Below are positions 11-19,327 of a stretch of DNA of 64,000 bases, piece by piece; position 1 is the first letter of the stretch; each line of letters starts with the position of its first letter. The DNA lies in assembly GCF_029893635.1 (NCBI RefSeq), contig NZ_JARXYR010000002.1:2579001-2643000 (forward strand). Reading direction: 5' to 3'. The DNA comes from Variovorax sp. TBS-050B (GTDB lineage: Bacteria; Pseudomonadota; Gammaproteobacteria; Burkholderiales; Burkholderiaceae_C). The position numbers and the translations under genes were made by a program. The notes under the pieces were generated by a model. The model saw only the letters and a program-made list of their open reading frames with translations, ran no database searches and had not been told where the DNA came from.

Positions 11-2164
11 GTGGACGGGGCTTTGACCGCCATGCCGCACGCCATCAATCGAAGCCAGCGGCTGCCCCCGCTGCGCCAGGATCTCCGGCTCATCGAAGGC
101 GGTGCGCACGGGTCCGCATCCGACGGCACCGCGCAGTGGCGCATTCACGATCCGCTCGCGCAGCGCTTCTACAGCGTCGGTTCCGACGTGGTGGACATGC
201 TGGCGCACTGGGGCGAAGGCAGCGCCGGCGCGCTGCGCGCGGCCATGCTGCGCGAGCGCGGCCGCGCCGCGAGCGACGAGAAGATCGCCGCGCTCTGCGA
301 GTTCCTGCAGCGCAACGAGCTGCTGCGTCCCGTGCCGCAGCAGACCTTCGCGCGCGTGCGCCGGCAGGTCGGGGCGGCCAGGCGTTCGCCAGGCAGCCGC
401 GTGCTGCACGGCTATCTGTTCTTCAAGCTGCCGCTCGCGCGGCCCGATGCCTTTCTGCGCCGCACGCTGGCCTGGGTGCAGGTGTTCTTCGCGCCGGCGC
501 TCTGGTGGACGGCCGCGTTGCTGGGGCTCGTCGGCCTCTATCTGGTGTCGCGGCAATGGGAGCGCTTCGTCGCCACCTTCCCCGACATGCTGTCGGCCGG
601 CGGCATCGCCACCTTCGGCTTGAGCCTGGTGCTGGTCAAGGCGCTGCACGAGCTCGGCCACGGCTACGCGGCCGTGCACATGGGCGCGCGCGTGACCACC
701 ATGGGCATGGCCTTCGTCGTGATGGCGCCCATTCTCTACACCGACACCACCGATGCCTGGCGCCTGCCGCACCGGCGCCAGCGCGTGCTGATCGACGCCG
801 CGGGCATGCTGGTGGAGCTGCTGGTGGCCGTGGCCGCGACGCTGGCCTGGGTGTTCCTGCCCGACGGGCCGATGCGCCATGCGGCCTTCGCGCTGGCCAC
901 CACCGGCTGGGTGCTCAGCCTGGCGGTGAACCTCAATCCGTTGATGCGCTTCGACGGCTACTACCTGTTCAGCGACCTGCTGGGGCAGCCCAATCTGCAG
1001 GAGCGCGCCTTCGCGATGGGGCGCTGGTGGCTGCGCGAGCTGCTGTTCGGCTTCGGCGACGCCGCACCCGAGCCCGCGCGCGGGCGCCGCCGGTTGCTGC
1101 TGGTCGGCTTCGCCTATGCCACCTGGCTCTACCGCTTCTTCCTGTTCCTCGGCATCGCGCTGCTGGTCTATCACTACTTCTTCAAGATGCTCGGTATCTT
1201 CCTGTTCGCGGTGGAGTTGGGCTGGTTCATCGCGCGGCCCGTCTGGCGCGAACTCCGGATCTGGGCCGTCCGGCGGCGCGAGGCGGGGCCGCGCGGGCGC
1301 ATCACCGCGCTGCTGCTGCTGGGCCTGCTGGTGGCGCTGCTGCTGCCCTTTCCCTACACGGTGCGCATTCCCGCCATGCTGACCGCGGCGCGAAAGGCGG
1401 CGGTCTTCTCGCCACGGGCGGGGCGCATCGAGGCCGTGCACGTGCGGCCGCGCGAGCAGGTCCGCGCGGGGCAGGTTTTGATCGACATGGCCGCACCGGA
1501 GATCGAGCAGCGGCTGCACAGCGCGCGCGCGAACCTGGCGCTGCTGCGGGAGCGCCTGGCGCGGCGGGGTGTGGACGAAAGCGACCTGTCGGCCAGCATG
1601 GTGCTCGCGCACGAACTCGGGCTCGAGCACGAGCGCATCGAAGGCCTGGAACGCGAGCGCGACCGCCTGCAGGTGCGCGCGCCAATGGACGGCGTCATCG
1701 CCGAGCTTGCGGAGGAACTCGGACCCGGGCACTGGATCGGCGAGGGCACGCAACTCGCGCTGATCGCCGCGCCGGGCGGCCTCTCGGCGCGCGGCTACGT
1801 CGCCGCCCACGACCTGCGGCGCATCGCCGAGGGCGACGAAGGCCGCTTCGTCGACGAGCTCCGCATGCAGCCCGCCCGCGCGCTGCGCCTCGAGCGCGTG
1901 GCCACGGCCGCCAGCGAGCACATGGACCACTGGCTGCTGGCGTCGACCCACGGCGGGCCGGTGGCCGCGCGCGCGCAGGGCGGCAGGACCGTGCCCGAGC
2001 ATGCGGTCTTCGAAGTGACGGCGCTGGCCGCAGCCGCGGGTCCGGCGCATCTGTCGATGACCGAGCTTCGCGGCGAGCTCCGCATCCGCGGTCGTCCCGA
2101 GAGCCTGGGCGCGCGGATGTTCAGGCGCGTCGCGCATGTGCTGGTGCGCGAGGCCGGGGCCTGA
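11..2164 (+). CDS. M50 zinc-protease-like / HlyD-like membrane fusion protein
   Basis: A 717-residue membrane protein with three parts. Residues about 15-110 resemble the N-terminal domain of 'putative peptide zinc metalloprotease' proteins. Residues about 150-400 carry several membrane segments, an HELGH zinc motif (213-217) and a downstream NPLMRFDG motif (309-316), as in site-2/M50 proteases. After a further membrane segment (about 430-448), residues about 463-620 form a HlyD-like lipoyl/hairpin adaptor with a charged coiled-coil section. The GTG at 11 has no visible Shine-Dalgarno and the frame is open to the window edge; ATG at 32 is an alternative, so the true start may lie upstream. 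It ends 64 bases before a giant repeat protein in the same direction. I infer a role in exporting or processing that protein; family membership is clear, the function is not. Confidence 0.85.
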   Translation: MDGALTAMPHAINRSQRLPPLRQDLRLIEGGAHGSASDGTAQWRIHDPLAQRFYSVGSDVVDMLAHWGEGSAGALRAAMLRERGRAASDEKIAALCEFLQRNELLRPVPQQTFARVRRQVGAARRSPGSRVLHGYLFFKLPLARPDAFLRRTLAWVQVFFAPALWWTAALLGLVGLYLVSRQWERFVATFPDMLSAGGIATFGLSLVLVKALHELGHGYAAVHMGARVTTMGMAFVVMAPILYTDTTDAWRLPHRRQRVLIDAAGMLVELLVAVAATLAWVFLPDGPMRHAAFALATTGWVLSLAVNLNPLMRFDGYYLFSDLLGQPNLQERAFAMGRWWLRELLFGFGDAAPEPARGRRRLLLVGFAYATWLYRFFLFLGIALLVYHYFFKMLGIFLFAVELGWFIARPVWRELRIWAVRRREAGPRGRITALLLLGLLVALLLPFPYTVRIPAMLTAARKAAVFSPRAGRIEAVHVRPREQVRAGQVLIDMAAPEIEQRLHSARANLALLRERLARRGVDESDLSASMVLAHELGLEHERIEGLERERDRLQVRAPMDGVIAELAEELGPGHWIGEGTQLALIAAPGGLSARGYVAAHDLRRIAEGDEGRFVDELRMQPARALRLERVATAASEHMDHWLLASTHGGPVAARAQGGRTVPEHAVFEVTALAAAAGPAHLSMTELRGELRIRGRPESLGARMFRRVAHVLVREAGA

Positions 2165-2214
2165 GGCCGCCGCGCCCGACGAACTCGCCGCCATCCGATC
2201 CACCCCCGTCCGTC

Positions 2215-2220
2215 AGGAGG
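2215..2220 (+). promoter_or_regulatory. Shine-Dalgarno fixing the start of the giant repeat gene
   Basis: A perfect AGGAGG lies eight bases before the ATG at 2229. The frame is open further upstream into the preceding gene, but no comparable site precedes the earlier candidates, so 2229 is chosen as the start. Confidence 0.8.
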
Positions 2221-2228
2221 CCTCAGCG

Positions 2229-5200
2229 ATGAGATCGACGCTTTTTGGTTTTGGTGCTGCTCGGCACGGCAGGGCCGTGGTGCGGGCTGCCCCGCAGGGT
2301 CTCGGGATCCAGGCGCTCGAACCGCGGGTGCTGCTCGACGCGGCCGCGGCGCAGACGGTGCAGGAGGCCGCGCAGGAAGCCGCCCCGGCGAACGACGCGG
2401 AACTCCCGCCGGTCGATGCGCGCGAGCACGAAGAACTCCTGGCCGCGATGGGTGCGCTCGACCCGCCCGAGGCGGCGCACGCCGCGCCCGCGGCCGGCGG
2501 CATCTACTTCATCGACCTCGCATTGCCCGACGCCGACCAGCTTGCCGCGAGTCTGCCCGCGGGTGCGGAGGTGCACTTCATCGGGGCCGATGCCGACGGC
2601 GTGGCCTGCATCGCCGAAGCACTGCGTGGACGCAGCGACGTCGGCGCCGTCCACATCCTCGGCCACGGCGAGGCCGGCGCGCTGCGCCTCGGCGCGACGA
2701 CCCTGACGCTGCAGAGCATGCAGAGCATGCAGGGCGAGCATCGCGACGAACTGGTGGCGATCGCCTCCTCGCTCTCGCAAGAGGCCGACATCCTGATCTA
2801 CGGCTGCGATTTCGGCGCCGGCGAGACCGGCGCGCGCGCCGTCGAGATGCTCGCGGCGCTGACCGGCGCCGACGTCGCGGCGTCCAGCGACGCCACCGGC
2901 GCGGAACGGTTCGGCGGCGATTGGGTGCTGGAAGTGCAGACCGGCGCGATCGAAGCGAAAGCGGCCTCGGCGCCGGAATGGGACTATCTGATGGCGCCGG
3001 CGAACCTCAGTATCGGCAGCAATGCCGTCGTGGACGGCTCGTTCGAAGGCGCTTCCTCCGGCTGGACGGTAGGAGGCGGCACCGAGGGGGCGGAAACGCG
3101 TCCCGCCTCGTCCTACGGCCTGAACACCGTCGTCGACGGTACTTACGCCGCCGAGGTCGAAGGCCCGATCGGCTCCAGCTATATCGAGCAATCCGTCACC
3201 GGGTTGACCCCGGGCGAGACCTACGTACTGAGCTGGTACGGGCATACCCGCCTCGGTCGCTCGACGGGCGCGGACCTCGGCCGCGCCATCGTGAGCAGCG
3301 GCGGTACCGAGATCGCGTCGCTGAACTTCCAGACCAGCCGCAGCGGCTGGACGCGGTTCTCGCTGAGCTTCACGGCGCCGGCCGATGGCACCGTGAACCT
3401 GCGTTTCCAGTCGCGCGGCAGCACGGGCGCGGACACGGGCTCGGACAGCAACGACGGACGAGGCCTGATCCTCGATGCGGTGCGCCTGGAACCGCAGCAT
3501 CATGAGGTCGGCTATACCGAGAACGCGGAGGGCGTCGCCATCGCGTCGGCCGACAGCACGCTGATCGACCTGGACAGCACCGACCAGCACTCGCTGACCG
3601 TGCGCATCGCCAACGCGCAGGCCGGCGACCTGCTGAGCGTCAGCGGCGCCCTGCCGGCGGGCATTACCGCGAGCTACGACGCCGCCACCACCACCCTCAC
3701 GCTCAGCGGCAGTGCCAGCGGCGCGGACTACCTCACCGCCCTGCAGGCGGTGCGCTACAGCTCGACGTCGGAGTCGCCATCGGAGGTCACGCGCATGATC
3801 GAAGTGGTGGCCAACGACGGCAGCGCCGATTCGAACACGGCCATGACCCGGGTCGCCGTCACAGCGCGCAACGATGCACCCACGCTCGACAGTGCCGTCG
3901 ACCTGCGTCACTCGGCGCAGGAGGACGCGCCTGCGCCTGCGAACGGCACGGCGGTCGGCGTGCCGGTCTCGACCTTCACCGGCGGCATCGCCGATGTCGA
4001 TGACGGCGCGAGCAGGGGTGTGGCCATCACGGGCAATGCGCCCAGCAACGGCGTCTGGTGGTACACCACCGACGGCGGCGCCACCTGGCGGCAGGTCGGA
4101 ACCGTTTCCGACAGCAATGCACTGCTGCTGGCCGACAACGCGCTGACCCGGCTCTACTTCCAGGCCACCACCGCCGACTACAACGGCTCCGGCGGCGCGA
4201 GCGCGCTGACGATGCGCGCCTGGGACCAGACCCAAGGCAGCAACGGCAGCTATTTCGATGTCGCCGCCAACGGCACGGGCGGCACCACCGCCTTCTCGAC
4301 GGCCGCCGATACCGTGACTCTGACCATCGACGCGGTCGCGGACATCGCCGCTGACACCGCGAGCACGTCCGAAGACTCGGCGGTGGTGATCGACGTGCTG
4401 GGCAACGACAGCTTCGAGGATGCGCGCCGCACGATCGCGCGGGTGAACGACCAGGCCATTGCGAGCGGCGGCTCGGTCGCGATCGAAAACGGCGCCGTGA
4501 CGCTCATGGCCGACGGCAAGCTGCGCTTCACACCCGCGGCCGACTTCCACGGGCCCGCGAGCTTCAGCTACACGGTCAGCTCCGGCGGTGGGAGCGAGAC
4601 CGCCAACGTGCGCGTCAACGTGGGCGCCATCAACGATCCGCCCGTGCCGCGCAATCCCGACGCACCGCCACAGGGGCAGACTTTCGATTCCGCGACCGGC
4701 CGCTACACGGCCACCACGCAGGAAGACACGGCCTTTGCGGGGCGGGTGGCCGCCGGCGATGTGGACGGCGACGCGCTGACCTACACCGTGAGCGCGCAGC
4801 CGTCGCACGGCGCAGTCACCCTCGACGCGGCCACCGGCGCCTACACCTACACGCCCACCGCCGACTACCACGGTGCGGACAGCTTCGAAGTGAGCATCAG
4901 CGACGGCCGGGGCGGCACGACGCGCAGCACGGTGAACCTGACGGTCACGCCGGTGGCCGACATCGCCGCCGACACCGCCACGACCCGCGAGGACACGCCG
5001 GTCGACATCGCGGTGCTCGGCAACGACAGCTTCGAGAACACCGGTCGCCGCGTGACGGCGATCAACGGCACGGCCGTGACGGCGGGCACGCCCGTGGCGG
5101 TTGCCAATGGCATGGTGACGCTGCAGGCCGATGGCACGCTGCGCTTCGTTCCAACGACGGATTTCCACGGCGCCCTGAGCTTCAGCTACACCGTCGGCTC

Positions 5201-8200
5201 GGGTGGCGCGAGCGAGACGGCCAACGTCACGGTCGAAGTGACGCCCGTCAACGATGCGCCGGTGGCTCGCGATTCCGCGATGGCCACCACGCAGGAAGAC
5301 ACGGCCTTCGAAGGTCGCGTGGTTGCCAGTGACGTGGACGGCGACACGCTCACCTACATCGTGAGTGCGCAGCCGGCGCACGGCACGGTGACGCTCGATG
5401 CCGCCACCGGCGCCTACACCTACACACCCGCCGCCGACTACAACGGCGCGGACAGTTTCGAGGTGACCATCAGCGACAGCCGGGGCGGGACGACGCGCAG
5501 CACGGTGCGCATGAACGCCACCCCTGTGGCCGACATTGCTGCGGATCGGATCAGCACACGCGAAGACACGCCGGTCGACATCGCGGTACTCGGCAACGAC
5601 AGCTTCGAAAACGCCGGCCGCCGCGTGACGGCGATCGACGGCACGGCCGTCACGGCGGGCACGGCGGTGGCGGTCGCCAACGGCACCGTGACGCTCCAGG
5701 CCGATGGCACCTTGCGCTTCGTGCCGGCAGCCAACTTCAACGGCACCGCCCGTTTCAGCTACACCGTCAGTTCGGGCGGCGTGAGCGAGACGGCCGATGT
5801 GCACGTCAACGTGGGCGCCACCAATGATCCGCCGGTGCCGCGCGAGCCTGCTCCGCCCATACCCGGTCAGACATTCGACCCCGCGACCGGCCACTACACG
5901 GCCAGCACGCAGGAGGACACGGCCTTTGCAGGGCGGGTGGCAGCCGGCGATGTGGACGGCGACACGCTGACCTACACCGTGAGCGCGCAGCCGTCGCACG
6001 GTACGGTGACGCTCGACGCGGCGACCGGTGCCTACACCTACACACCCGCCGCCGACTACAACGGTGCGGACAGCTTCGAGGTGAGCATCAGCGACGGTCG
6101 AGGCGGCACGGCGCGCAGCACCGTGAACATGACCGTCACGCCCGCGGCCGACATCGCCGCCGACACGGCCACGACCCGCGAGGACACGCCGGTGGACATC
6201 GCCGTGCTCGGCAACGACAGCTTCGAGAACACCGGTCGCCGCGTGACGGCCATCAACGGCACGGCCGTGACGGCAGGTACGCCGGTGGCGGTCTCCAACG
6301 GCATGGTGACGCTGCAAGCCGATGGCACCTTGCGCTTCGTTCCAACGGCGGATTTCCACGGCGCCCTGAGCTTCAGCTACACCGTCAGCGCGGGTGGCGT
6401 GCGCGAGACGGCCAGCGTCACGGTCGAGGTGACGCCCGTCAACGATGCGCCGGTGCCGCGTGAGCCGAATCCGTCCACACCGGGCCAGACCTTCGATCCC
6501 GCAACCGGCCGCTACACGGCCACCACGCAGGAGGACACGCCCTTTGCGGGGGGCGTGGCCGCGAACGACGTGGATGGCGACACGCTCACCTACACCGTGA
6601 GTGCGCAGCCGGCGCACGGCACGGTGGTGCTCGATGCCGCCACCGGCGTCTACACCTACACACCCGCCGCCGACTACCACGGCGCGGACAGCTTCGAGGT
6701 GACCATCAGCGACAGCCAAGGCGGCACGGCGCGCAGCACGGTGAACCTGACGGTCACCCCGGTGGCCGACATCGTCGCCGACACCGCCACGACCCGCGAA
6801 GACACGCCGGTCGACATCGCAGTGCTCGTCAGCGACAGCTTCGAGGATGCGGGCCGCGCGATCATCGCGATCGATGGCATGCCGATCACGTCCGGAGGGC
6901 CGGGCATCGACGTCGCCAACGGCAGCGTGACGCTGCAGGCCGATGGCACCTTGCGCTTCGTGCCGACAGCCAACTTCAACGGCACCGCCCGTTTCAGCTA
7001 CACCGTCAGTTCGGGCGGCGTCAGCGAGACGGCCAACGTGCAGGTCAACGTGGGTGCCACCAACGATCCGCCGGTGCCGCGCGAACCCAACCCGCCCGCA
7101 CCCGGCCAGACCTTCGACCCGGCGACCGGCCACTACACGGCCACCACGCAGGAAGACAGCGCCTTCGAGGGTCGCGTGGCCGCCAACGACGTAGACGGCG
7201 ACACGCTCACCTACACCGTGAGCACGCAGCCGGTGCACGGCACGGTCACCTTCGACGCGGCCACCGGTGCCTACACCTACACGCCGACCGCCGACTACAA
7301 CGGTGCGGACAGCTTCGAAGTGACCATCAGCGACAGCCGGGGCGGCACGGCGCGCAGCACGGTGAACATGACCGTCACGCCCGTGGCAGACATCGCCGCG
7401 GATCGGGTCAGCACCCGCGAGGACACGCCGGTCGACATCGCGGTACTCGGCAACGACAGCTTCGAGGACACCGGGCGCCGCGTGACCGCGATCAACGGCA
7501 CGGCCGTGACGGCGGGCACGCCGGTGGCCGTCTCCAACGGCATGGTGACGCTGCAGGCCGATGGCACGCTGCGCTTCGTGCCGACGGCCGACTTCCACGG
7601 CGCCTTGAGCTTCAGCTACACCGTCAGCGCGGGCGGCGTCAATGAGACGGCCGACGTCACGGTCGAGGTGACGCCCGTCAACGATGCGCCGGTGCCGCGC
7701 AACCCCGACACACCGCCACCGGGCCAGATCTTCGATCCGGCGACCGGCCACTACACGGCCACCACACAGGAGGACACGGCCTTTGCGGGGCGCGTGGCTG
7801 CGAACGATGTGGACGGCCACACGCTCACCTACACCGTGAGCACGCAGCCGACGCACGGCACGGTGACGCTCGATGCCGCCACCGGTAGCTATACCTACAC
7901 ACCCACCGCTGATTACAACGGCGCGGACAGCTTCGAGGTCACCATCAGCGACAGCCAAGGCGGCACGGCGCGTAGCACGGTGAACATGACCGTCACGCCG
8001 GTGGCCGACATCGCTGTGGATCGGGTCAGTACCCGTGAGGACACGCCGATCAATATCGCGGTGCTCGGCAACGACAGCTTCGAGGATGCGGGCCGCGCGG
8101 TCAGCGCAATCGACGGCATGCCGATCACGTCCGGAGGCCCGGGCGTCAACGTCGCCAACGGCACCGTGACGCTGCAGGCCGACGGCACCTTGCGCTTCGT

Positions 8201-11200
8201 GCCGACGGCCAACTTCAACGGCACCACCCGCTTCAGCTACACCGTCGATTCGGGCGGCGTCAGCGAGACGGCCGACGTGCGCGTCAGCGTGACGGCAGCC
8301 AACGATCCGCCCGTGCCGGCGGACCCTGGTGGCCAGCCGGGCCAGCGCTTCGATGCGGCCAGCGGCAGCTACGCCGGCACCACGCCGGAGGACACCGCCT
8401 TCAACGGCCGGGTGGCTGCTAGCGACGTGGACGGCGACACGCTCACCTACACCATGCGCACGCCGCCGGCACATGGCACGGTCACCCTCGATGCGGCCAC
8501 CGGCGCCTACACCTACACGCCGGCCGCCGACTACAACGGCATGGACAGTTTCGTGGTGGCCATCAGCGACGGCGCATTCACGGTCGAATCCACGGTGACG
8601 ATGACGGTCACACCGGTGTCGGACATCGCGGTCGACACCGCCACGACCCGCGAAGACACGCCGGTCGACATCGCGGTGCTGGGCAACGACAGCTTCGAGG
8701 ACACGGGTCGCACCATCACGTCGATCAATGGCACCGCACTGACGCCCGGTACGGCGGTCGCGGTGCCCAACGGCATGGTGACGCTGCAGCCCGACGGCAC
8801 CCTGCGCTTCGTGCCGGCAGCCAACTTCAACGGCACCACCCGCTTCAGCTACACCGTCAGCGCGGGCGGCGTGAGCGAGACGGCCGACGTCACGGTCGAA
8901 GTGGCCTCCGTCAACGACGCGCCGGTGCCGCGCGAGCCCAACCCGCCCACACCGGGGCAAACCTTCGATCCCGTCACCGGCCGCTACACGGCCACCACGC
9001 AGGAAGACACGGCGTTCGCCGGCCGAGTGATAGCCGACGACGCGGACGGCGACGCGCTCACCTACACCGTGAGCGCGCAGCCGACGCATGGCACGGTGAC
9101 GCTCGATGCGGCCACCGGCGCGTACACCTACACGCCGACCGCCGACTACAACGGTGCAGACAGCTTCGAGGTGAGCATCAGCGACGGGCAGGGCGGCACG
9201 ACGCGCAGCACGGTGCGCATGAGCATCATCGCCGTGGCCGACATCGCCGCGGATCGGATCAGCACGCGCGAGGACACGCCGATCGACATTGCGGTGCTCG
9301 GCAACGACAGCTTCGAGGACACCGGCCGCCGCGTGACGGCCGTCAACGGCACGACCGTGCCCGTGGGTACGCCGGTGGCGGTCTCGAACGGCATGGTGAC
9401 GCTGCAGGCCGATGGCGCCTTGCGCTTCGTTCCGGCGGATGACTTCCACGGCGCCTTGAGTTTCAGCTACACGGTCGATGCGGGCGGCGCGCGCGAGACA
9501 GCCAACGTCACGGTCGAGGTGACGCCGGTCAACGACCCGCCGGTGGCTCGCGATGTCGCGATGGCCGCCACGCAGGAGGACACCGCCTTCGAGGGTCGCG
9601 TGGCTGCCGACGACGTGGACGGCGACATGCTCACCTACGCCGTGAGCACGCAGCCGACGCATGGCACGGTGATGCTCGATGCGGCCACGGGTGCCTACGT
9701 CTACACACCCGCCGCGGACTACAACGGCGCGGACAGCTTCGAAGTGAGCATCAGCGACGGCCAAGGCGGCGCGACGCGCAGCACCGTGAACATGACCATC
9801 ACGCCCGTGGCCGACATTGCCGCGGATCGGATCAGCACCCGCGAGGACACGGTGGTCGGTATCGCGGTTCTGAGCAACGACAGCTTCGAAAACACCGGCC
9901 GCCGCGTGGCGGCGATCAACGGCACGGCCGTGACCGCAGGCACGCCGGTGACGGTCTCCAACGGCTCGGTGACGCTGCAGGCCGATGGCACGCTGCGTTT
10001 CGTCCCGTCGGCCGACTTCCACGGTGCCTTGAGCTTCAGCTACACGGTCGATGCGGGCGGCGCGAGCGAGACGGCCAATGTCACTGTCGAGGTGACGCCC
10101 GCCAATGATGCGCCGGTGCCGCGTGAGCCGATCCCGCCCACGCCCGGTCAGATCTTTGACCCGAGAACCGGCCACTACACGGCCTCCGCGCAGGAAGACA
10201 CGGCCTTCGAAGGCCAAGTGGCCGCCAACGACGTCGACGGCGATACGCTCACCTACACCGTGAGCGCGCCGCCGGTGCATGGCACGGTCACCCTCGATGC
10301 CGCCGCCGGTGCATACACCTACACGCCCGCCGCCGACTACAACGGCACCGACAGCTTCGAGGTCATCATCAGCGACAGTCAAGGCGGCACGACGTGCAGC
10401 GCCGTGAACATGACCGTCACGCCCGTGGCCGACATCGCCGCCGACACCATCACGACCCGTGAAGACACGCCGCTCGACATCGCCGTGCTCGGCAACGACA
10501 GCTTCGAGGACACCGGCCATCGTGTGACGGCCATCAACGGCACGGCCGTGACTGCAGGCACGCCGGTGGCGGTCTCCAATGGCATGGTGACGCTGCAGGT
10601 CGATGGCACGCTGCGCTTCGTTCCAACGGCGGATTTCCACGGCGCACTGAGCTTCAGCTACACCGTCGCCTCCAGCAGCGCGAGCGAAACCGCCAACGTC
10701 ACGGTCGAGGTGACGACCGTGAACGACGCGCCCGTGCCGCGCCACCTCGAGACGCCGCCACCGGGCCAGCACTTCGATCCCGCGACCGGCCACTACACGG
10801 CCACCACACAGGAAGACACGCCGTTCGCCGGCCGGGTGACCGCCAGCGACACGGACGGCGACCCGCTCACCTATGCCGTGCACACACAACCAGCGCACGG
10901 CACGGTCACCCTCGATGCGAACACGGGCGCCTACACCTACACGCCCACCTTCGACTACAACGGCACCGACAGCTTCGAGGTGAGCATCAGCGACGGCCGC
11001 GGCGGCACGACGCGCAGCACGGTGACCCTGACCATCACCCCCGTCGCCGACATCGCCGTCGACACTGCCACGACCGACGAAGACACGCCCGTCGACATCG
11101 CCGTGCTCGGCAACGACAGCTTCGAAAACCCCGGCCGCCGCGTGACGGCCATCGATGGCACGGCCGTCGCGCCCGGCACGCCGGTGGCGGTCTCCAACGG

Positions 11201-12173
11201 CACGGTGACGCTGCAGCCCGACGGCACCCTGCGCTTCGTTCCGGCGGCCGGCTTCCACGGCACGCTGAGCTTCGGCTACACGGTCGGCGCGGGCGGGGCC
11301 AGCGAGACTGGTCAGGTGACCGTCGACGTGACCCCTGCCGTTCCCGACGCGCCGGCGCCCGCCCAGCCGCCGGTGCAGCCTGCACCGGTGGTGCTGGCGC
11401 CGCCGCCCCCCGTGCCCACGACCGCGCCCGCGCCCGCGCCCGCGACGGCGCCGGCTCCCGCGCCGGCCGCAGCCGGAACCGGCCTGCGCGCCGAGCCGGT
11501 GCTGCTCGGCGCCGTCGACGGCGCCGAGTCGTTGCAAGGCACCACCGGGCTGGACGGCGCCGGGGTGGTGGTGCTGGCGGCCAACGGCATCGACTCCCTC
11601 GACGGCACCGCGGCGCTCGACGTGGACGGCGTGGTGCTGCGCGCGGTCAATGCCGTGGATTCACTGCGCGGCCTCGACGCGGGCGGCGACGGTCGCGCCC
11701 CCTCGTGGCGGTCGACCCCCGTGGCCTCGAGTGCCGACGCGGCGGCGCCGCAGCCGATCGCGGCGCAGGCTCTGCGCACGGCCGACGGCGTGCGGCTCGA
11801 ATTCGAACAGCAGGGCGACCGCGCGTGGATTTCGGTCGGCGTGGCCGACGGGGTGCGCGGCCTGCGCGTCACGCTCGACGACGGCCGCCCGGCGCCTGCG
11901 TGGCTGCGCGTGGACCCGAGCGGCTTCGTGCGCATCGACCGGCCGGCCGGCGTCGATCAGCTGCGCCTGCGCGTCACGCTCATCGACGAGCACGGAACGG
12001 CCCGCAGCGAACGGGTCGAGATCGATTTCAGCACCGGACAGGTCCGGCGGCTGACCGATCCCGCACCGGACGGGCCGCGGGCCGCCGCGCCCAGTTTCTC
12101 CGAACAGCTCCAGCGGGCGGCGCGGCCCGCGGTGGCGCCGCGCGAGACCCAACTCTCTGAGCGGGTGGGCTGA
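2229..12173 (+). CDS. Giant LEPR-XLL / DUF4347 / tandem Ig-cadherin-repeat protein
   Basis: A 3,314-residue protein. Residues 30-38 read LEPRVLLDA, the LEPR-XLL type motif found at the N-terminus of very large bacterial surface or secreted proteins; no ordinary Sec signal peptide is obvious. Residues about 88-255 match DUF4347 (conserved HILGHGEAG and IYGCDFG). A lectin-like beta domain follows (about 260-425), then two unique Ig-like domains, then a tandem array of two alternating module types (about 700-3035). A Pro/Ala-rich linker, three short 22-residue repeats and a final beta-rich domain end the protein. I see no RTX nonapeptides, LPXTG or outer-membrane barrel. The 5' neighbour with a HlyD-like domain suggests a dedicated export route. 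Likely a large adhesin or matrix protein (inference). Confidence 0.88.
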   Translation: MRSTLFGFGAARHGRAVVRAAPQGLGIQALEPRVLLDAAAAQTVQEAAQEAAPANDAELPPVDAREHEELLAAMGALDPPEAAHAAPAAGGIYFIDLALPDADQLAASLPAGAEVHFIGADADGVACIAEALRGRSDVGAVHILGHGEAGALRLGATTLTLQSMQSMQGEHRDELVAIASSLSQEADILIYGCDFGAGETGARAVEMLAALTGADVAASSDATGAERFGGDWVLEVQTGAIEAKAASAPEWDYLMAPANLSIGSNAVVDGSFEGASSGWTVGGGTEGAETRPASSYGLNTVVDGTYAAEVEGPIGSSYIEQSVTGLTPGETYVLSWYGHTRLGRSTGADLGRAIVSSGGTEIASLNFQTSRSGWTRFSLSFTAPADGTVNLRFQSRGSTGADTGSDSNDGRGLILDAVRLEPQHHEVGYTENAEGVAIASADSTLIDLDSTDQHSLTVRIANAQAGDLLSVSGALPAGITASYDAATTTLTLSGSASGADYLTALQAVRYSSTSESPSEVTRMIEVVANDGSADSNTAMTRVAVTARNDAPTLDSAVDLRHSAQEDAPAPANGTAVGVPVSTFTGGIADVDDGASRGVAITGNAPSNGVWWYTTDGGATWRQVGTVSDSNALLLADNALTRLYFQATTADYNGSGGASALTMRAWDQTQGSNGSYFDVAANGTGGTTAFSTAADTVTLTIDAVADIAADTASTSEDSAVVIDVLGNDSFEDARRTIARVNDQAIASGGSVAIENGAVTLMADGKLRFTPAADFHGPASFSYTVSSGGGSETANVRVNVGAINDPPVPRNPDAPPQGQTFDSATGRYTATTQEDTAFAGRVAAGDVDGDALTYTVSAQPSHGAVTLDAATGAYTYTPTADYHGADSFEVSISDGRGGTTRSTVNLTVTPVADIAADTATTREDTPVDIAVLGNDSFENTGRRVTAINGTAVTAGTPVAVANGMVTLQADGTLRFVPTTDFHGALSFSYTVGSGGASETANVTVEVTPVNDAPVARDSAMATTQEDTAFEGRVVASDVDGDTLTYIVSAQPAHGTVTLDAATGAYTYTPAADYNGADSFEVTISDSRGGTTRSTVRMNATPVADIAADRISTREDTPVDIAVLGNDSFENAGRRVTAIDGTAVTAGTAVAVANGTVTLQADGTLRFVPAANFNGTARFSYTVSSGGVSETADVHVNVGATNDPPVPREPAPPIPGQTFDPATGHYTASTQEDTAFAGRVAAGDVDGDTLTYTVSAQPSHGTVTLDAATGAYTYTPAADYNGADSFEVSISDGRGGTARSTVNMTVTPAADIAADTATTREDTPVDIAVLGNDSFENTGRRVTAINGTAVTAGTPVAVSNGMVTLQADGTLRFVPTADFHGALSFSYTVSAGGVRETASVTVEVTPVNDAPVPREPNPSTPGQTFDPATGRYTATTQEDTPFAGGVAANDVDGDTLTYTVSAQPAHGTVVLDAATGVYTYTPAADYHGADSFEVTISDSQGGTARSTVNLTVTPVADIVADTATTREDTPVDIAVLVSDSFEDAGRAIIAIDGMPITSGGPGIDVANGSVTLQADGTLRFVPTANFNGTARFSYTVSSGGVSETANVQVNVGATNDPPVPREPNPPAPGQTFDPATGHYTATTQEDSAFEGRVAANDVDGDTLTYTVSTQPVHGTVTFDAATGAYTYTPTADYNGADSFEVTISDSRGGTARSTVNMTVTPVADIAADRVSTREDTPVDIAVLGNDSFEDTGRRVTAINGTAVTAGTPVAVSNGMVTLQADGTLRFVPTADFHGALSFSYTVSAGGVNETADVTVEVTPVNDAPVPRNPDTPPPGQIFDPATGHYTATTQEDTAFAGRVAANDVDGHTLTYTVSTQPTHGTVTLDAATGSYTYTPTADYNGADSFEVTISDSQGGTARSTVNMTVTPVADIAVDRVSTREDTPINIAVLGNDSFEDAGRAVSAIDGMPITSGGPGVNVANGTVTLQADGTLRFVPTANFNGTTRFSYTVDSGGVSETADVRVSVTAANDPPVPADPGGQPGQRFDAASGSYAGTTPEDTAFNGRVAASDVDGDTLTYTMRTPPAHGTVTLDAATGAYTYTPAADYNGMDSFVVAISDGAFTVESTVTMTVTPVSDIAVDTATTREDTPVDIAVLGNDSFEDTGRTITSINGTALTPGTAVAVPNGMVTLQPDGTLRFVPAANFNGTTRFSYTVSAGGVSETADVTVEVASVNDAPVPREPNPPTPGQTFDPVTGRYTATTQEDTAFAGRVIADDADGDALTYTVSAQPTHGTVTLDAATGAYTYTPTADYNGADSFEVSISDGQGGTTRSTVRMSIIAVADIAADRISTREDTPIDIAVLGNDSFEDTGRRVTAVNGTTVPVGTPVAVSNGMVTLQADGALRFVPADDFHGALSFSYTVDAGGARETANVTVEVTPVNDPPVARDVAMAATQEDTAFEGRVAADDVDGDMLTYAVSTQPTHGTVMLDAATGAYVYTPAADYNGADSFEVSISDGQGGATRSTVNMTITPVADIAADRISTREDTVVGIAVLSNDSFENTGRRVAAINGTAVTAGTPVTVSNGSVTLQADGTLRFVPSADFHGALSFSYTVDAGGASETANVTVEVTPANDAPVPREPIPPTPGQIFDPRTGHYTASAQEDTAFEGQVAANDVDGDTLTYTVSAPPVHGTVTLDAAAGAYTYTPAADYNGTDSFEVIISDSQGGTTCSAVNMTVTPVADIAADTITTREDTPLDIAVLGNDSFEDTGHRVTAINGTAVTAGTPVAVSNGMVTLQVDGTLRFVPTADFHGALSFSYTVASSSASETANVTVEVTTVNDAPVPRHLETPPPGQHFDPATGHYTATTQEDTPFAGRVTASDTDGDPLTYAVHTQPAHGTVTLDANTGAYTYTPTFDYNGTDSFEVSISDGRGGTTRSTVTLTITPVADIAVDTATTDEDTPVDIAVLGNDSFENPGRRVTAIDGTAVAPGTPVAVSNGTVTLQPDGTLRFVPAAGFHGTLSFGYTVGAGGASETGQVTVDVTPAVPDAPAPAQPPVQPAPVVLAPPPPVPTTAPAPAPATAPAPAPAAAGTGLRAEPVLLGAVDGAESLQGTTGLDGAGVVVLAANGIDSLDGTAALDVDGVVLRAVNAVDSLRGLDAGGDGRAPSWRSTPVASSADAAAPQPIAAQALRTADGVRLEFEQQGDRAWISVGVADGVRGLRVTLDDGRPAPAWLRVDPSGFVRIDRPAGVDQLRLRVTLIDEHGTARSERVEIDFSTGQVRRLTDPAPDGPRAAAPSFSEQLQRAARPAVAPRETQLSERVG
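4330..11334 (+). repeat. In-frame tandem array, about 610-bp period, 11 A-B pairs plus a final A
   Basis: Within the giant gene two modules alternate. A modules begin around VADIAAD and contain VLGNDSFE and TLRFVP; I count twelve. B modules contain DVDGDTLTYTVS and TYTPAADYNGADSFEV; I count eleven. Most pairs are joined by a Pro-rich linker with GQTFDPATG; two (near 5.27 and 9.55 kb) have a shorter linker. A modules near 6.82 and 8.06 kb share a variant loop (IDGMPITSGGPG). DNA identity between copies is visibly high over long stretches, so the array can recombine and could be miscounted in a short-read assembly. Confidence 0.93.
11499..11693 (+). repeat. Three degenerate 22-residue repeats in the C-terminal region
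   Basis: Three consecutive units of about 22 residues share the pattern VL-x-A-(V/N)-(D/N)-x-(A/I/V)-(E/D)-S-L-x-G, followed by a short Asp/Gly stretch. They lie between the Pro/Ala linker and the terminal beta domain. The spacing resembles stacked beta-strand repeats but does not match the calcium-binding RTX consensus. Confidence 0.6.
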
Positions 12174-13697: not shown

Positions 13698-13889
13698 GGT
13701 GCTGTGGCTCCTTGCATGTGAAGACCACCGTAAATCGCCCTCGCTGCGCCCGCGTAGGAATGCGTCCCGAATGCGCGCCCGCCGTGTCGCGCGAGTTCCG
13801 CTTTGCTTGCAAGGAGTGACGACGCACGCCTACGCCCCGGCGGGCGCGGCCTGGGCATGCTCGGCCCTCTCGACTCTGGAGTACGGGCG

Positions 13890-14519
13890 ATGGGGCCTGA
13901 CAAGAAGGACACGGCCGGCAAGGCCGGCAACGGCAACGGCGGCAATCACGGCAACGGCGGCAATCACGGCGACCGCGGCGGCAAGGCGCGCCATCCGACG
14001 CGCCGCAGGCATCCCTCGCTCCAGGCCCTGACGCACCAGAACATCGAGTCGATCCTCCAGCTCGAGGACGAGAATCTCCGTGCCAAGCCGCCGCTCTATC
14101 GCCTCGTGTCGCGCGTGGCGGGCTTCTGCGGCACCGTTGCCTTCCTTTGGTGGAACCTCGCGTTCTTCGCCGTGTGGATCGCGCTCAACGAGCTGGTCTG
14201 GCGCATCGATCCCTATCCCTTCACCTTCCTGCTCTTCCTCGTGTCGATCGAGGCGATCGTGCTGGCGATCCTGATCCTCATCAGCCAGAACATGTCGGCC
14301 GAAGCCAGCGAGCGACGGCACCACCTGGACCTGCAGGTCGACCTGCTCAACGAGCGCGAGATGACGGCGCTGCTGCGCCTCGTGACCCGCATGGCCGAAA
14401 AGATGGAGCTCCCGCCCGAGACCCACGGCGAGGTGAAGGCGCTGACCGAACGCACCGATCCGAGCAAGGTGCTGCACCAGATCGTCGAAGCCGAAGCCAC
14501 GCACCGCGAACGCGGCTGA
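13890..14519 (+). CDS. DUF1003 membrane protein
   Basis: 209 residues from the ATG at 13890, preceded by TGGAG at suitable spacing; longer starts at 13803 (TTG) or 13857 (ATG) cannot be excluded. The N-terminus is Gly/Asn/His-rich with basic stretches. Two membrane segments (about 77-104 and 111-132) are separated by a short RIDPYPF turn, followed by a cytoplasmic, charged helical tail. This is the layout of the DUF1003 family of small inner-membrane proteins of unknown function. The gene is divergent from the SDR gene and convergent with recJ. Confidence 0.85.
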   Translation: MGPDKKDTAGKAGNGNGGNHGNGGNHGDRGGKARHPTRRRHPSLQALTHQNIESILQLEDENLRAKPPLYRLVSRVAGFCGTVAFLWWNLAFFAVWIALNELVWRIDPYPFTFLLFLVSIEAIVLAILILISQNMSAEASERRHHLDLQVDLLNEREMTALLRLVTRMAEKMELPPETHGEVKALTERTDPSKVLHQIVEAEATHRERG

Positions 14520-14559
14520 CGGCTGAACAGGCGCAGGCCAGAGCACCCGCGGATCGGGC

Positions 14560-14634
14560 TCTGCCCGTCCGCCGGGTGCGCCCCCCAGTGGGGGGAGGCG
14601 GCTACACGAAGTGAGCCGCTTCGGGGGGCGTCAA
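14560..14634. repeat. Interspersed GC-rich repeat, family A, copy 1
   Basis: A partial copy of a Comamonadaceae-type repeat recognised by GCGCCCCCCAG/GGGGGG and GCCGCTTCGGGGGGCG blocks. It can fold into G/C-rich hairpins. Related copies are at about 43776-43870 and 54997-55085. Here it fills the gap between two convergent genes and could serve as a transcription stop for both. Confidence 0.6.
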
Positions 14635-16370
14635 AGTTCTGCGCCCTCAATCAGGAAGCGCAGCCGCCGCACGCCCTGCCATTCGTCGGCATCGAGCCGG
14701 AACGCCAGCTTCACGCGCGGCGGCAGCGGCTCGGTGTGGCCGAACCAGATGCCGTCGACCGGCTGCCCCTGGTGCCGCAGCTTGAGCGCGAGATGCTTCT
14801 CGCCCACCAGCCGCTGGGACACCACCTCGACCTCCTCGCTGAAGGTCGGCGGTGCGAAGCCCTGGCCCCACACCTCGCGGTGCAGCGTGTCGACCAGGTC
14901 GATGCGCATGTACTCGCGCGCGATCGGCCCGTCGGTCTCGATCTGGCGCGTGAGCGCCGAGGCCGCGAGCCATTCGTTCGCCACCTCGGCCAGCGCCCGC
15001 TCGAAGACCTCGAACCGGTCGCGCGCCACCGTGCAGCCGGCCGCCATCGCATGCCCGCCGAAGCGCAGCAGCACGCCCGGATGCCGCTTGGCCACCAGGT
15101 CGAGCGCATCGCGCAGATGAAAGCCCGGGATCGAGCGGCCCGAGCCCTTGAGCTCGTGTTCCTTGCCGGGCGCGCCGCTGGCGGCAAAGACGAAGGTCGG
15201 CCGATGGAAGCGGTCCTTGATGCGCGAGGCCACGATGCCGACCACGCCTTCGTGGAAGTCGGCGTCGAACACGCTGATGGCGGCGGGCGGCGTCTCGGCG
15301 CCATCGGCGTCGGGGCCGAACAGCGATTCGGCGAGCAGCAGCGCCTGCTCGCGCATGCCGCCCTCGATGTCGCGCCGCTCGCGGTTGATGCCGTCGAGCA
15401 GGCGCGCGAGCTCGTCGGCGCGGCCCGCGTCGTCGGTCAGCAGGCATTCGATGCCCAGCGTCATGTCGGCCAGCCGGCCGGCCGCGTTGATGCGCGGGCC
15501 GAGCGCAAAGCCGAAATCGAAAGTGGTGGCGGCGGCCGCGTTGCGCCCGGCCGCCTTGAACAGCGCCGCGATGCCCGCGGGCATCGCGCCTGCGCGGATG
15601 CGCCGCAGCCCCTGCGCCACCAGGCGCCGGTTGTTGGCATCGAGCCTGACCACGTCGGCCACCGTGCCCAGCGCCACCAGCGGCAGCAGCACGTCGAGCT
15701 TGGGCTGCGGATTGCCTGCCCCCCGGCTTGCCACTTCGAACACGCCGCGCGCGCGCAGCTCGGAGCGCAGTGCCAGCAGCACGTAGAACATCACGCCCAC
15801 GCCCGCGATGCTCTTGCTCTCGAAGCCGCAGCAGGGCTGGTTGGGATTCACCAGCACGTCGGCGGCCGGCAGCTCGGGGCCGGGCAGGTGGTGATCGGTC
15901 ACCAGCACCTGCAGGCCGCGCGCCTTGGCGGCGGCCACGCCCTCGACGCTCGCGATGCCGTTGTCGACCGTGATCAGCATGTCGGCGCCGCTGTCGGCCA
16001 CGCGCTCGGCAATCGGCGGCGTGAGGCCGTAGCCGTCCACCACCCGGTCGGGCACCAGGTAGCTCACGTGCTGCGCGCCCAGCAGCCGCAGGCCACGCAC
16101 CGCGACCGCGCAGGCGGTGGCGCCGTCGCAGTCGTAGTCGGCCACGATGCACAGGCGCTTGCCCGCGGCCATCGCATCGGCCAGCAGCACCGCGGCCTCG
16201 CGCGTGCCGTGCAGCGTGTCGGGCGGGAGCAGCCGGGCCAGCCCGTCGTCGAGCTCGTCGCTCGCGCGCACGCCGCGCGCCGCGAACAGGCGCGCGAGCA
16301 GCGGATGCACGCCCGCCTGCTCCAGCGCCCAGGCGCTGCGGGGCGGAATCTCCCTGGCGATGATCTTCAT
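14631..16370 (-). CDS. recJ: Single-stranded-DNA-specific exonuclease RecJ
   Basis: 579 residues, the normal RecJ length. Metal-binding motifs of the DHH family are present: DYDCDG (78-83), VDNG (about 136-139) and DHH (159-161), with GGHAMAAG in the DHHA1 domain. RecJ degrades single-stranded DNA 5' to 3' in recombination and mismatch repair. The ATG at 16370 overlaps the stop of the upstream gene by four bases (ATGA), so the two are translationally coupled. The open frame extends farther upstream but without homology to RecJ. Confidence 0.95.
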   Translation of the reverse strand: MKIIAREIPPRSAWALEQAGVHPLLARLFAARGVRASDELDDGLARLLPPDTLHGTREAAVLLADAMAAGKRLCIVADYDCDGATACAVAVRGLRLLGAQHVSYLVPDRVVDGYGLTPPIAERVADSGADMLITVDNGIASVEGVAAAKARGLQVLVTDHHLPGPELPAADVLVNPNQPCCGFESKSIAGVGVMFYVLLALRSELRARGVFEVASRGAGNPQPKLDVLLPLVALGTVADVVRLDANNRRLVAQGLRRIRAGAMPAGIAALFKAAGRNAAAATTFDFGFALGPRINAAGRLADMTLGIECLLTDDAGRADELARLLDGINRERRDIEGGMREQALLLAESLFGPDADGAETPPAAISVFDADFHEGVVGIVASRIKDRFHRPTFVFAASGAPGKEHELKGSGRSIPGFHLRDALDLVAKRHPGVLLRFGGHAMAAGCTVARDRFEVFERALAEVANEWLAASALTRQIETDGPIAREYMRIDLVDTLHREVWGQGFAPPTFSEEVEVVSQRLVGEKHLALKLRHQGQPVDGIWFGHTEPLPPRVKLAFRLDADEWQGVRRLRFLIEGAEL

Positions 16371-17335
16371 AGGGCCTCGAGCACCGCGGCGGCGTGCGTG
16401 CGGTCGAACAGGCTGCGGGCCCAGCCCAGCAGGCCGCGCTGCTGCACGGCATAACGCTGCGCCGCGCGGTCGCCGCAGAGCGTGAGCGACACCTCCGCGC
16501 CCGCCGTGTAGGCGGCCAGCAGCGTCGCCACGGCACCCGCATCGAGCGCCTGCCAGGCCTCGGCCCAGCCTGCGCCGTCGTCGCGCAGCGCGCACACGCG
16601 CAGCGCCTCGCTGACTTCGGGCGTGGGGCCGGTCGCCGCCGGCGCATCGGCTGGCAGCGCGCCGGTGCCGCTGAGCCAGAACGAATTGATCGGCGGCACG
16701 CCGCGCGCGGCGCGTTCGTCGTTCACGCGCTGGGTGTAGAGCAGCATCTGCATTTCGTTCTGCAGCCGGCGCAGCGGCCGGGCCGCATCGGCCAGCGGCG
16801 ACCACTGCGAGATCGGATGGCCCACCGCGCGGTCGATCGATGCGGTGGCCAGCCCTTCGAAGATGCGCCCGCGCGCCAGCCAGCGGCCCGGGGTGGGGGA
16901 GGCATGCAGCGCGATGCCGTCCTCCTCGAAGAAGGGGCGGGCGGCGTCCAGCAGCGCGGCCGATTCGGCCGCGTCGATCTCGATCGCGGACGGGTCGCCG
17001 AGCACCACGTCGTCGATGCCCACCTGCCAGTGGCACAGCGAGACCAGGCCCCAGGCCTCGCGGTCGCCGGCCTCGGCGATGCCGGCCTGCCGCGCTTCGA
17101 GCGCGGCCCAGGGGATGCAGCCGTCTTCCGCGGCGATGCCGAGCGCGCTGGCGAGTGCCCTTTCATGGGGCGGCGAGCGCGTGCCTTCGTCCTGCGCATC
17201 GCGCTCGGCCAGCGAGAGCCGGGACAGCAGCGATTCCAGGTTCGGCAGCCGCAGCGTCGCCAGGGCCGCGCGGCATGCCGGGGAACCGCGGCCGGCAAAG
17301 GGGATCAACAAATGACGGGGGGGAGCTTCGGCCAT
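16367..17335 (-). CDS. Phosphoglycerate-mutase-like protein co-transcribed with recJ
   Basis: 322 residues from the ATG at 17335. The N-terminus (HLLIPFAG), the SPPHERALA segment, the CHWQVG segment and the late block RLQNEMQMLLY...INSFWLSG match a conserved Burkholderiales protein usually labelled phosphoglycerate mutase; the alkaline-phosphatase-type metal ligands of true mutases are not evident. It overlaps recJ by four bases, and that pairing is often seen in betaproteobacteria. Role unknown; it could be a regulatory or nucleotide-processing partner. Divergent from lolC with 65 bases between. Confidence 0.7.
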   Translation of the reverse strand: MAEAPPRHLLIPFAGRGSPACRAALATLRLPNLESLLSRLSLAERDAQDEGTRSPPHERALASALGIAAEDGCIPWAALEARQAGIAEAGDREAWGLVSLCHWQVGIDDVVLGDPSAIEIDAAESAALLDAARPFFEEDGIALHASPTPGRWLARGRIFEGLATASIDRAVGHPISQWSPLADAARPLRRLQNEMQMLLYTQRVNDERAARGVPPINSFWLSGTGALPADAPAATGPTPEVSEALRVCALRDDGAGWAEAWQALDAGAVATLLAAYTAGAEVSLTLCGDRAAQRYAVQQRGLLGWARSLFDRTHAAAVLEAL

Positions 17336-17400
17336 GTCCCGTATTGTCCGGGATGCCACAATCCCGCACGACCGCCGCGGCGCGGCGAACCACTCACACC

Positions 17401-18657
17401 ATGCGACTTCCTTATGAACTGCAGCTCGGCTGGCGCTACACGCGCGCAGGCCGGGCCACACGGCGCAACGGCTTCATCTCCTTCATCTCCGGCGTGTCGA
17501 TGCTCGGCATCGCGCTCGGCGTGGCGGCGCTGATCATCGTGCTGAGCGTCATGAACGGCTTCCAGAAAGAGGTGCGCGACCGCATGCTCGGCGTGGTCTC
17601 GCACATCGAGATCCTCTCGCGCGACGGCCAGGCGCTGCCGGAGATCGACGCCATCATGGCCGCGGCGCGCAAGAACCCCGAGGTGGTCGGCGCCGCCCCC
17701 TTCATCGCCACCCAGGCGCTGATCGCGCGCGGCGAGGACATGAAGGGCACGCTGGTGCGCGGCATCGTGCCGAAGCTCGAACCCGAGGTCACCGACATCG
17801 CCACCACGGCGCAGAAGGGCACGCTCGACAAGCTGGTGCCGGGCGAGTTCGGCATCGTGCTCGGCGGCGAGCTCGCGCGCTCGCTCTTCGTGCAGCCCGG
17901 CGACCAGGTCACGCTGGTGGCGCCGGGCGGCCAGGTCACGCCGGCCGGCGTGGTGCCGCGGCTCAAGCAGTTCACCGTGGTCGGCACCTTCGAGTCGGGC
18001 CATTACGAATACGACTCGGCGCTCGCGATGATCCATGCCGAGGACGCGCAGCGCGTGTTCCGGCTCGAAGGCCCCACCGGCATCCGCATCAAGCTCAAGG
18101 ACCTGAACGAGGCGCGCGAGGTGGCCGACCAGATGGCCGTCACGCTGCCCGGGCAGTTCCTGATCCGCGACTGGACGCGGCAGAACAAGACCTGGTTCGC
18201 GGCCGTGCAGGTCGAGAAGCGCATGATGTTCATCATCCTCACGCTGATCGTCGCTGTCGCGGCCTTCAACCTCGTGTCCACGCTCGTGATGACCGTGACC
18301 GACAAGCGTGCCGACATCGCGATCCTGCGCACGCTCGGCAGCTCGCCGCGCAGCATCATGGGCATCTTCGTGGTGCAGGGCGCGATGGTGGGCGTGATCG
18401 GCACCGTGGCGGGCCTCGTGCTCGGGCTCTCGATCGCCTACAACATCGACGTGATCGTGCCCTTCCTCGAGCAGCTGTTCCATGCGAGCTTCCTGCCCAA
18501 GGACATCTACCTGATCAGCAAGATGCCGAGCGATCCGCAGCGCAGCGACATCATGCCGATCGCCATCATCTCGCTGGTGCTCGCCTTCCTGGCGACGCTC
18601 TATCCCAGCTACCGCGCGAGCCGCGTGAACCCCGCGGAGGCCTTGCGCTATGAGTGA
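17401..18657 (+). CDS. lolC: Lipoprotein-releasing ABC transporter permease LolC/LolE type
   Basis: 418 residues with the MacB/FtsX-type topology: an N-terminal membrane segment after the conserved WRYTRA and NGFISFIS motif, a large periplasmic domain (about 45-265), then three membrane segments near the C-terminus (about 275-405). The family moves mature lipoproteins from the inner membrane to LolA. Only one permease gene is seen beside lolD, so the exporter may be a homodimeric LolF-like type; this is inferred from the neighbourhood. The ATG at 17401 fits the conserved [14 protein letters not shown] beginning although no clear Shine-Dalgarno is seen. Confidence 0.92.
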
Positions 18658-19327
18658 AGTCGTATTGAAGGCCCGCGGCCTCACCAAGCGCTTCCACGAA
18701 GGCCGCATCGACCTGACCGTGCTGCATGGCGTCGACCTCGACGTGCATGCGGGCGAAACGCTCGCGATCGTCGGCGCCTCGGGCTCGGGCAAGAGCACGC
18801 TGCTGCACCTGATGGGCGGGCTCGACGAGCCGACGGCGGGCAAGGTCGAGCTGCTCGGCAAGGACATCGCGCATGCCGATGCGGCCGAGCAGGGCCGGCT
18901 GCGCAACCAGCACCTGGGCTTCGTCTACCAGTTCCACCACCTGCTGCCGGAGTTCAGCGCGCTCGACAACGTGGCGATGCCGCTCAAGATCCGGCGCGTC
19001 GAATCCTCGCAGGCCCATGCCGCGGCCGCGAAGATCCTCGACAGCGTGGGCCTGGGCCAGCGCCTGCACCATCGCCCGGCCGAGCTCTCGGGCGGCGAGC
19101 GCCAGCGCGTGGCGATCGCGCGCGCGCTGGTCACGCAGCCGGCCTGCGTGCTGGCCGACGAGCCCACCGGCAACCTCGACCGCAGCACCGCCGACACCGT
19201 GTTCGCGCTGATGATCGAACTCGCGCACAAGCACCGCACGGCCTTCGTGATGGTCACGCACGACCAGGAACTCGCGAAGCGCTGCGACCGCGTGCTGCAG
19301 CTGGTGGCGGGCCGGCTCGCGGGCTGA
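18650..19327 (+). CDS. lolD: Lipoprotein-releasing ABC transporter ATPase LolD
   Basis: 225 residues: Walker [10 protein letters not shown] (about 43-51), the signature [15 protein letters not shown], Walker [12 protein letters not shown] and the H-loop THD. This is a typical LolD that powers lipoprotein release with LolC. It overlaps the end of lolC by eight bases, indicating one operon with coupled translation. Confidence 0.94.

Follow-up and report, generated by a model that had tools for sequence, protein, structure and literature searches.

A giant LEPR-tagged protein and its PqqD-like/M50/HlyD neighbour in Variovorax sp. TBS-050B: candidate parts of an export and processing system without its own ABC exporter

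INTRODUCTION

The closest described system is the SecA_DEAD, or type-I-related, locus of Kamneva, Poudel and Ward (2015, PMC4452313). In the parts of that article devoted to it, GAF-HlyD, M50-HlyD and HlyD proteins are encoded together and no ABC exporter was found; SecA_DEAD was proposed to be the ATPase and the M50 protein the pore, the broader role being called completely unknown. These parts name no cargo and no tag, and a term search of the main text returned none of LEPR, DUF4347 and giant. The locus analysed here, from Variovorax sp. TBS-050B, likewise has a GAF-type adaptor and an M50-HlyD fusion; it differs in having its own TolC-type channel, in a genome without a SecA paralog.

Three other systems invite comparison. 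Type I secretion (HlyB-HlyD-TolC) shares with our locus adaptors, a TolC-type channel and a very large cargo, but here there is no co-encoded ABC exporter, the tag is N-terminal and a protease is fused to an adaptor. Among M50 maturation proteases, those of daptides (NF041824) and the YydH/LiaK type (NF058609) are the relevant ones: our fusion matches the daptide model over residues 45-405 with 165.6 bits, below its cut-off of 300 bits, and differs in that its protease is joined to an adaptor and its partners are giant proteins. Finally, the accessory SecA2 systems of Gram-positive bacteria devote a second SecA to large repeat adhesins. They would parallel the SecA-bearing loci described below, which are, however, Gram-negative and adaptor-coupled; that paralog is absent from the genome studied here.

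In the openly licensed PubMed Central literature, no export route for LEPR-XLL proteins was found in the passages retrieved. The same literature gave no work joining DUF4347 with HlyD, or giant proteins with SecA and HlyD, and no paper joining SecA_DEAD-type machinery with LEPR/DUF4347 tagged cargo. The retrieved passages on tandem-95 and DUF4347 include one on a T6SS effector.

RESULTS

The fusion and the giant protein are the last genes of a five-gene locus

The initial annotation of the window (the whole stretch of DNA that was analysed, 64,000 nucleotides) had placed a fusion of an M50 protease (HELGH, NPxxxxDG) and a HlyD-type adaptor next to a 3,314-residue LEPR protein, and both were found where it put them. 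It had taken the two for a two-gene unit, which is ruled out by an outer-membrane channel gene (OEP) and two further adaptor genes upstream. The locus starts some 3.8 kb ahead of the window and consists of five genes on the same strand, in the order OEP, small adaptor, larger (GAF-like) adaptor, M50-HlyD fusion and giant (Table 1); the larger adaptor overlaps the beginning of the fusion frame. Of the upstream partners that the annotation had envisaged, a TolC-type channel is present and an ABC exporter was not found among the five genes. The genome contains no second fusion of this kind and a single LEPR match above the cut-off. A promoter scan of the upstream region found 0 promoters versus 0.2 expected.

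Three features of the surroundings were recorded in passing. A tRNA-Thr gene (tgt; L005 12882-12957) lies some 750 bases ahead of the OEP gene and is a possible integration point. Genes for a MacB_PCD/FtsX permease and an ABC ATPase occupy window positions 16840-19327. Opposite the repeat array, an antisense frame of 3,104 codons is open on the minus strand (window 2223-11537); it is probably a by-product of high G+C content and repeats.

Table 1. Features of the locus; positions refer to the window unless the upstream stretch L005 is named
Feature	Position	Strand	Basis
TolC-type OEP	L005 (upstream stretch) 13712-15307	same strand as fusion	PF02321
Small adaptor	L005 15312-16136	same strand as fusion	RND_mfp 104.2 bits, cut-off 94.9
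Larger adaptor, GAF-like	L005 16142-17527	same strand as fusion	HlyD_3 (in longer frame scanned)
PqqD-like / M50 protease / HlyD-type adaptor fusion P0002	11..2164	+	Pfam M50, HlyD_3, HlyD_D23; ATG at 32 possible true start
PqqD-like domain of fusion, residues 42-105	134..325	+	profile-profile; predicted structure
HELGH zinc-binding motif of M50, residues 213-217	647..661	+	HExxH in 99/99 aligned fusions
NPLMRFDG second M50 motif, residues 309-316	935..958	+	Asp in 99/99
Periplasmic adaptor domain of fusion, residues 446-695	1346..2095	+	
Giant LEPR / DUF4347 / tandem-95 protein P0001, 3,314 aa	2229..12173	+	translation, families, AGGAGG before ATG
N-terminal tag LEPRVLLDAA of giant	2316..2345	+	tag of relatives; LEPR-8K 22.2 bits
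DUF4347 domain, predicted caspase-like fold	2502..2969	+	PF14252 E 2.7e-45; Foldseek, VIA-align
DUF4347 candidate catalytic codons	His 2664-2666, Cys 2805-2807	+	conserved residues
Tandem-95 / Big_9 repeat array of giant	3912..11345 (approximate limits, from translation)	+	23 stretches

The gene order recurs in distant bacteria

Using 40 fusion homologues as queries, we collected 80 loci with flanks of up to 10 kb, the best 80 of 593, and the counts in this paragraph refer to these. The loci come from Achromobacter, Halomonas, Rhizobiales, Pseudomonas, Pectobacterium, Nitrospira, Desulfonema and Pelagibacteraceae. In all loci with sufficient room (75/75) the larger adaptor is encoded on the same strand, no more than 1.5 kb upstream; the small adaptor is so placed in 67/72, and an OEP is found anywhere in the locus in 56/80. 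A simple motif scan of the flanks detected an ABC ATPase frame in 11/80, one of them of fused-exporter size. A conserved ABC exporter in the flanks was dropped as a candidate: the recurrent ABC family there (14 loci) has an oligopeptide-transporter-like example. The MacB-like pair of the window is not a recurrent neighbour in these loci.

Fusion scores separate the relatives into a close group (19 genomes, >400 bits) and a distant one (a further 37 genomes). The larger adaptor of the Variovorax locus matched the GAF adaptor of the distant group at 95.4% in a profile-profile comparison. Four loci (L170, L175, L176, L180) are arranged differently, as OEP, tagged protein and fusion; their tags have the form LE(K/N/Q/E)R(I/V)VLD, and they possibly constitute a third class.

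The giants carry a short tag near their start

The frame of the giant is open from 2136, and the ATG directly following AGGAGG gives the length noted above. The protein contains 23 stretches each of tandem-95 and Big_9; TRF reported no repeat array because the array has diverged at the DNA level. With the LEPR-8K / LEPR-XLL model NF012209 (cut-off 17), the whole protein scored 16.1 bits and the genome frame search 22.2 bits.

Among the best 80 of 593 loci, giants form a single-linkage cluster covering 55. The motif LExRxx(F/L)D(A/G/S)(A/G/S) is present in 33 of the 34 cluster giants with a readable 5' end, the exception being that of L039, and in 28 of them it lies at most 60 residues from the frame start. 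Counted inside the first 160 residues, the tag occurs in 32/34 giants, as compared with a mean of 0.02 and a maximum of 4 for 200 permuted patterns. Only 3 of 4,452 other ORFs (length at least 100 aa) carry it (two in L047, one in L085), and these three may be partner proteins too. The two of L047 (222-6031) adjoin one another beside a Micavibrio fusion; they bear the tag LEKRLMLDAS and have no DUF4347 match. Fourteen further giant starts (L109-L121, L123) are also tagged; they are no independent proof because they were fetched at LEPR matches.

Five fusions came from genomes without an LEPR match, and the stretches beside them contained a tag in L160-L162 (LEPRIVYEAS, LEPRIVYDGS, LEPRMMFDGA) and none in L163 and L164. 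NF012209 was consequently dropped as the only tag detector, since it misses these three. Sizes can be extreme: the longest open frame among LEPR matches reaches 14,112 aa, and a single genome (G280) has five such matches in frames of 5,806 to 14,112 aa.

The initial annotation held that the giant lacks RTX repeats, LPXTG and a Sec signal, and this agrees with our results. No RTX or LPXTG model appears in the family listings for the giant, and no Sec-type hydrophobic core is visible round the tag in the 33 tagged giants. Hydropathy over 15 residues round the tag was 0.52-1.71 in 33/33 tagged relatives, versus at least 2.0 in 38/53 OEP N-termini. As for a conserved C-terminal domain in the giants, one strong match was obtained (L010), the others being weak or repeat-type, in 5 ORFs. 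The short start tag of most giants is probably an export or cutting signal.

Predicted domains of the fusion and of DUF4347

The fusion P0002 scored 27.7 bits against Peptidase_M50 (Pfam cut-off 27.2), and the catalytic residues, HExxH and the Asp, are invariant in the 99 aligned fusions. Its N-terminus matched PqqD at 90.4% and 96.2% in profile-profile comparisons, with 23 control slices at 0.0-1.1%; the Pfam PqqD model matches 2/40 fusions and not P0002 itself. In the structure model this region consists of strands followed by three helices and sits ahead of the first predicted membrane helix. On its sequence profile, the N-terminus looks like a PqqD-like, leader-binding fold. VIA-align applied to the whole fusion returned the adaptor fold, mainly over residues 433-700; it named no PqqD or M50 chain and is uninformative either way on those parts.

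In the giant, DUF4347 (PF14252) scored 154.5 bits for a cut-off of 24.6, and structural matches by Foldseek and VIA-align were of the caspase/CHAT/legumain type. Candidate residues are conserved across DUF4347 domains (Cys 31/31, Gly 31/31, His 28/31), with the His-Gly and the Cys at the ends of strands 123-129 and 167-176, a clan CD-type arrangement. In the predicted structure, DUF4347 looks like a caspase-fold cysteine protease. The candidate His is replaced by Glu in L041, L048 and L064, where the Cys is kept; judging from this substitution, these three domains are possibly inactive. No DUF4347 match was found in 7/38 tagged close-group frames, one of them just 164 aa long.

Fusions and LEPR proteins co-occur

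Co-occurrence was examined in 369 independently drawn genomes of the class, of which 56 have the fusion and 58 have LEPR. Both are present in 37 genomes, the fusion only in 19, LEPR only in 21 and neither in 292, giving an odds ratio of 27 (p 4e-22, genome relatedness ignored). A fusion accompanies LEPR matches at E 0.001 or better in 26/28 genomes and those in frames of at least 900 aa in 27/29, as against 1/16 for weak matches in short frames. An LEPR match at E 0.1 or better was obtained in 26 of the 40 genomes to which the selected loci belong. Fusion and giant families adjoin one another in many genera and share an LEPR-type tag. Because of this strong co-occurrence and side-by-side placement, the objection that the two genes might not be conserved together, raised in the initial annotation against its own proposal, does not hold.

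The association has exceptions. In the surroundings of the fusions of the 19 fusion-only genomes, 7 have a tagged neighbour overlooked by the LEPR model and 12 have none in view. Several of these 12 are on short contigs, and beside the loci of L171 and L173 a long frame is cut off by the contig end; L165, L166, L168, L178 and L179 have no tagged neighbour despite room and are counterexamples. No tagged protein was seen round the fusions of L046 and L065 in the stretches examined. In some genomes most giants are on contigs other than that of the fusion.

A SecA paralog accompanies part of the distant group

We examined 18 distant-group neighbourhoods, about half of them chosen for a nearby LEPR match. 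Ten of the 18 loci encode a SecA paralog (650-760 aa) with both SecA_DEAD and preprotein-crosslinking domains; the other 8 have none in the stretch. At E 1e-190 the SecA-paralog model matched 23 of the 369 genomes, 22 of them with a fusion and 19 with the fusion within 1 kb. The 23rd match, from G385, has the lowest score and a length of 901 aa, and probably represents an ordinary SecA. Of the 8 loci, L091, L093, L094, L095 and L101 come from genomes outside the 23. In the 80 close-group loci (best 80 of 593), the only match to the paralog reached 24.9 bits. The SecA-like ATPase envisaged by the initial annotation is therefore found in part of the distant group (22 genomes with both) and not in the genome of the window, whose one SecA is of ordinary length (947 aa).

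In the close group, all 55 tagged ORFs have D or E after LExRxxx; in the distant group, all 13 have S or A. Most of these 13 were picked near LEPR matches; those of L181-L183 were not, and also have S. The four loci with the other gene order have D; they were set apart post hoc, and three have fusion scores in the distant range. Adding the four to the close group gives 59/59 versus 13/13 (p 1.4e-14, post hoc and uncorrected). This pattern in the sequences suggests that tag and machine may be matched to each other.

DISCUSSION

Sequence comparison shows that the channel, the small adaptor, the GAF-like adaptor and the fusion are encoded together and that they travel with giants tagged LExRxx(F/L/Y) followed by D or S. 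We infer tag recognition, cutting and the energy source or motor in the genome of the window. With moderate confidence, we propose that two parts of a dedicated export and processing system lacking an ABC exporter of its own are encoded in the window: its cargo and its inner-membrane subunit. In this scheme the fusion would bind the tag in the cytoplasm through its PqqD-like domain, and the giant would pass the inner membrane unfolded and enter the adaptor/TolC duct with no ABC exporter dedicated to it. Clipping at or near the tag would fall to the M50 site, and the caspase-like DUF4347, where present, would later make a further cut, perhaps in cis. The likely motor would be the SecA paralog in loci where the fusion has one as a neighbour, the ordinary SecA being the likeliest in the genome of the window. 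The export/processing pair of the initial annotation is partly supported in this form.

Other routes across the envelope have to be weighed. Were this ordinary type I secretion, with the ABC exporter encoded elsewhere (e.g. by the MacB-like pair) and the M50 domain a side function, one would expect the adaptors and TolC-type channel that are indeed present, and a permease and ABC ATPase do lie about 4.7 kb past the giant; however, the scarcity of ABC ATPase frames in the flanks by a simple pattern (just 11 of the best 80 of 593 loci), the N-terminal position of the tag and the lack of an RTX match make it very unlikely. The giants might instead cross by SecYEG through a cryptic signal, the locus serving the outer-membrane step only and M50 and DUF4347 trimming in the periplasm or at the surface. 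A genome without a dedicated motor would suit this, and the SecA paralogs of the distant group are a hint of a Sec-type step, but the hydrophobic core is absent in 33/33 tagged giants. A PqqD-like domain placed before the first predicted membrane helix would, moreover, have no task, and we consider this route distinctly unlikely.

The role given to the M50 domain can also be questioned. M50 proteins often cut regulators, and fusions without a visible tagged neighbour exist, as would be expected of a regulatory site-2 protease or a small-molecule efflux adaptor for which the giant is merely a frequent neighbour; the co-occurrence and tag statistics and the conserved five-gene setting render this highly improbable. 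DUF4347, not M50, might cut the tag: its predicted caspase fold and the Arg of the tag would suit self-cutting after LExR. The structural matches and the conservation of the Cys and His fit, and a preference for Arg occurs among such enzymes, yet some tagged frames have no DUF4347 match, three domains lack the His and the M50 residues never vary, so that this assignment appears unlikely.

Coming back to dedicated export with M50 clipping, the parts might define a distinct Gram-negative secretion system, with a duct lacking an ABC exporter of its own, a PqqD-like reader of a short N-terminal E-x-R tag, clipping by an intramembrane M50 protease that is fused to the adaptor, a SecA-type motor for threading very long polypeptides, and final maturation by a caspase-like domain of the cargo; this we advance tentatively, at slightly less than an even chance. 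With respect to the parts of PMC4452313 that treat the SecA_DEAD locus, our analysis adds a tagged cargo family, the PqqD-like domain, the caspase-like DUF4347 and a variant that lacks the SecA paralog and has a TolC-type gene of its own. Among the best 80 of 593 loci, this variant spans Pelagibacteraceae to Rhizobiales, Pseudomonas and Nitrospira. Linking the 2015 locus, for which those parts give no cargo, with LEPR-XLL proteins, for which the passages retrieved give no route, provides both with a testable function. If true, this would be a secretion route easily overlooked by annotation, since its components are listed there under efflux adaptors, a site-2 protease and domains of unknown function.
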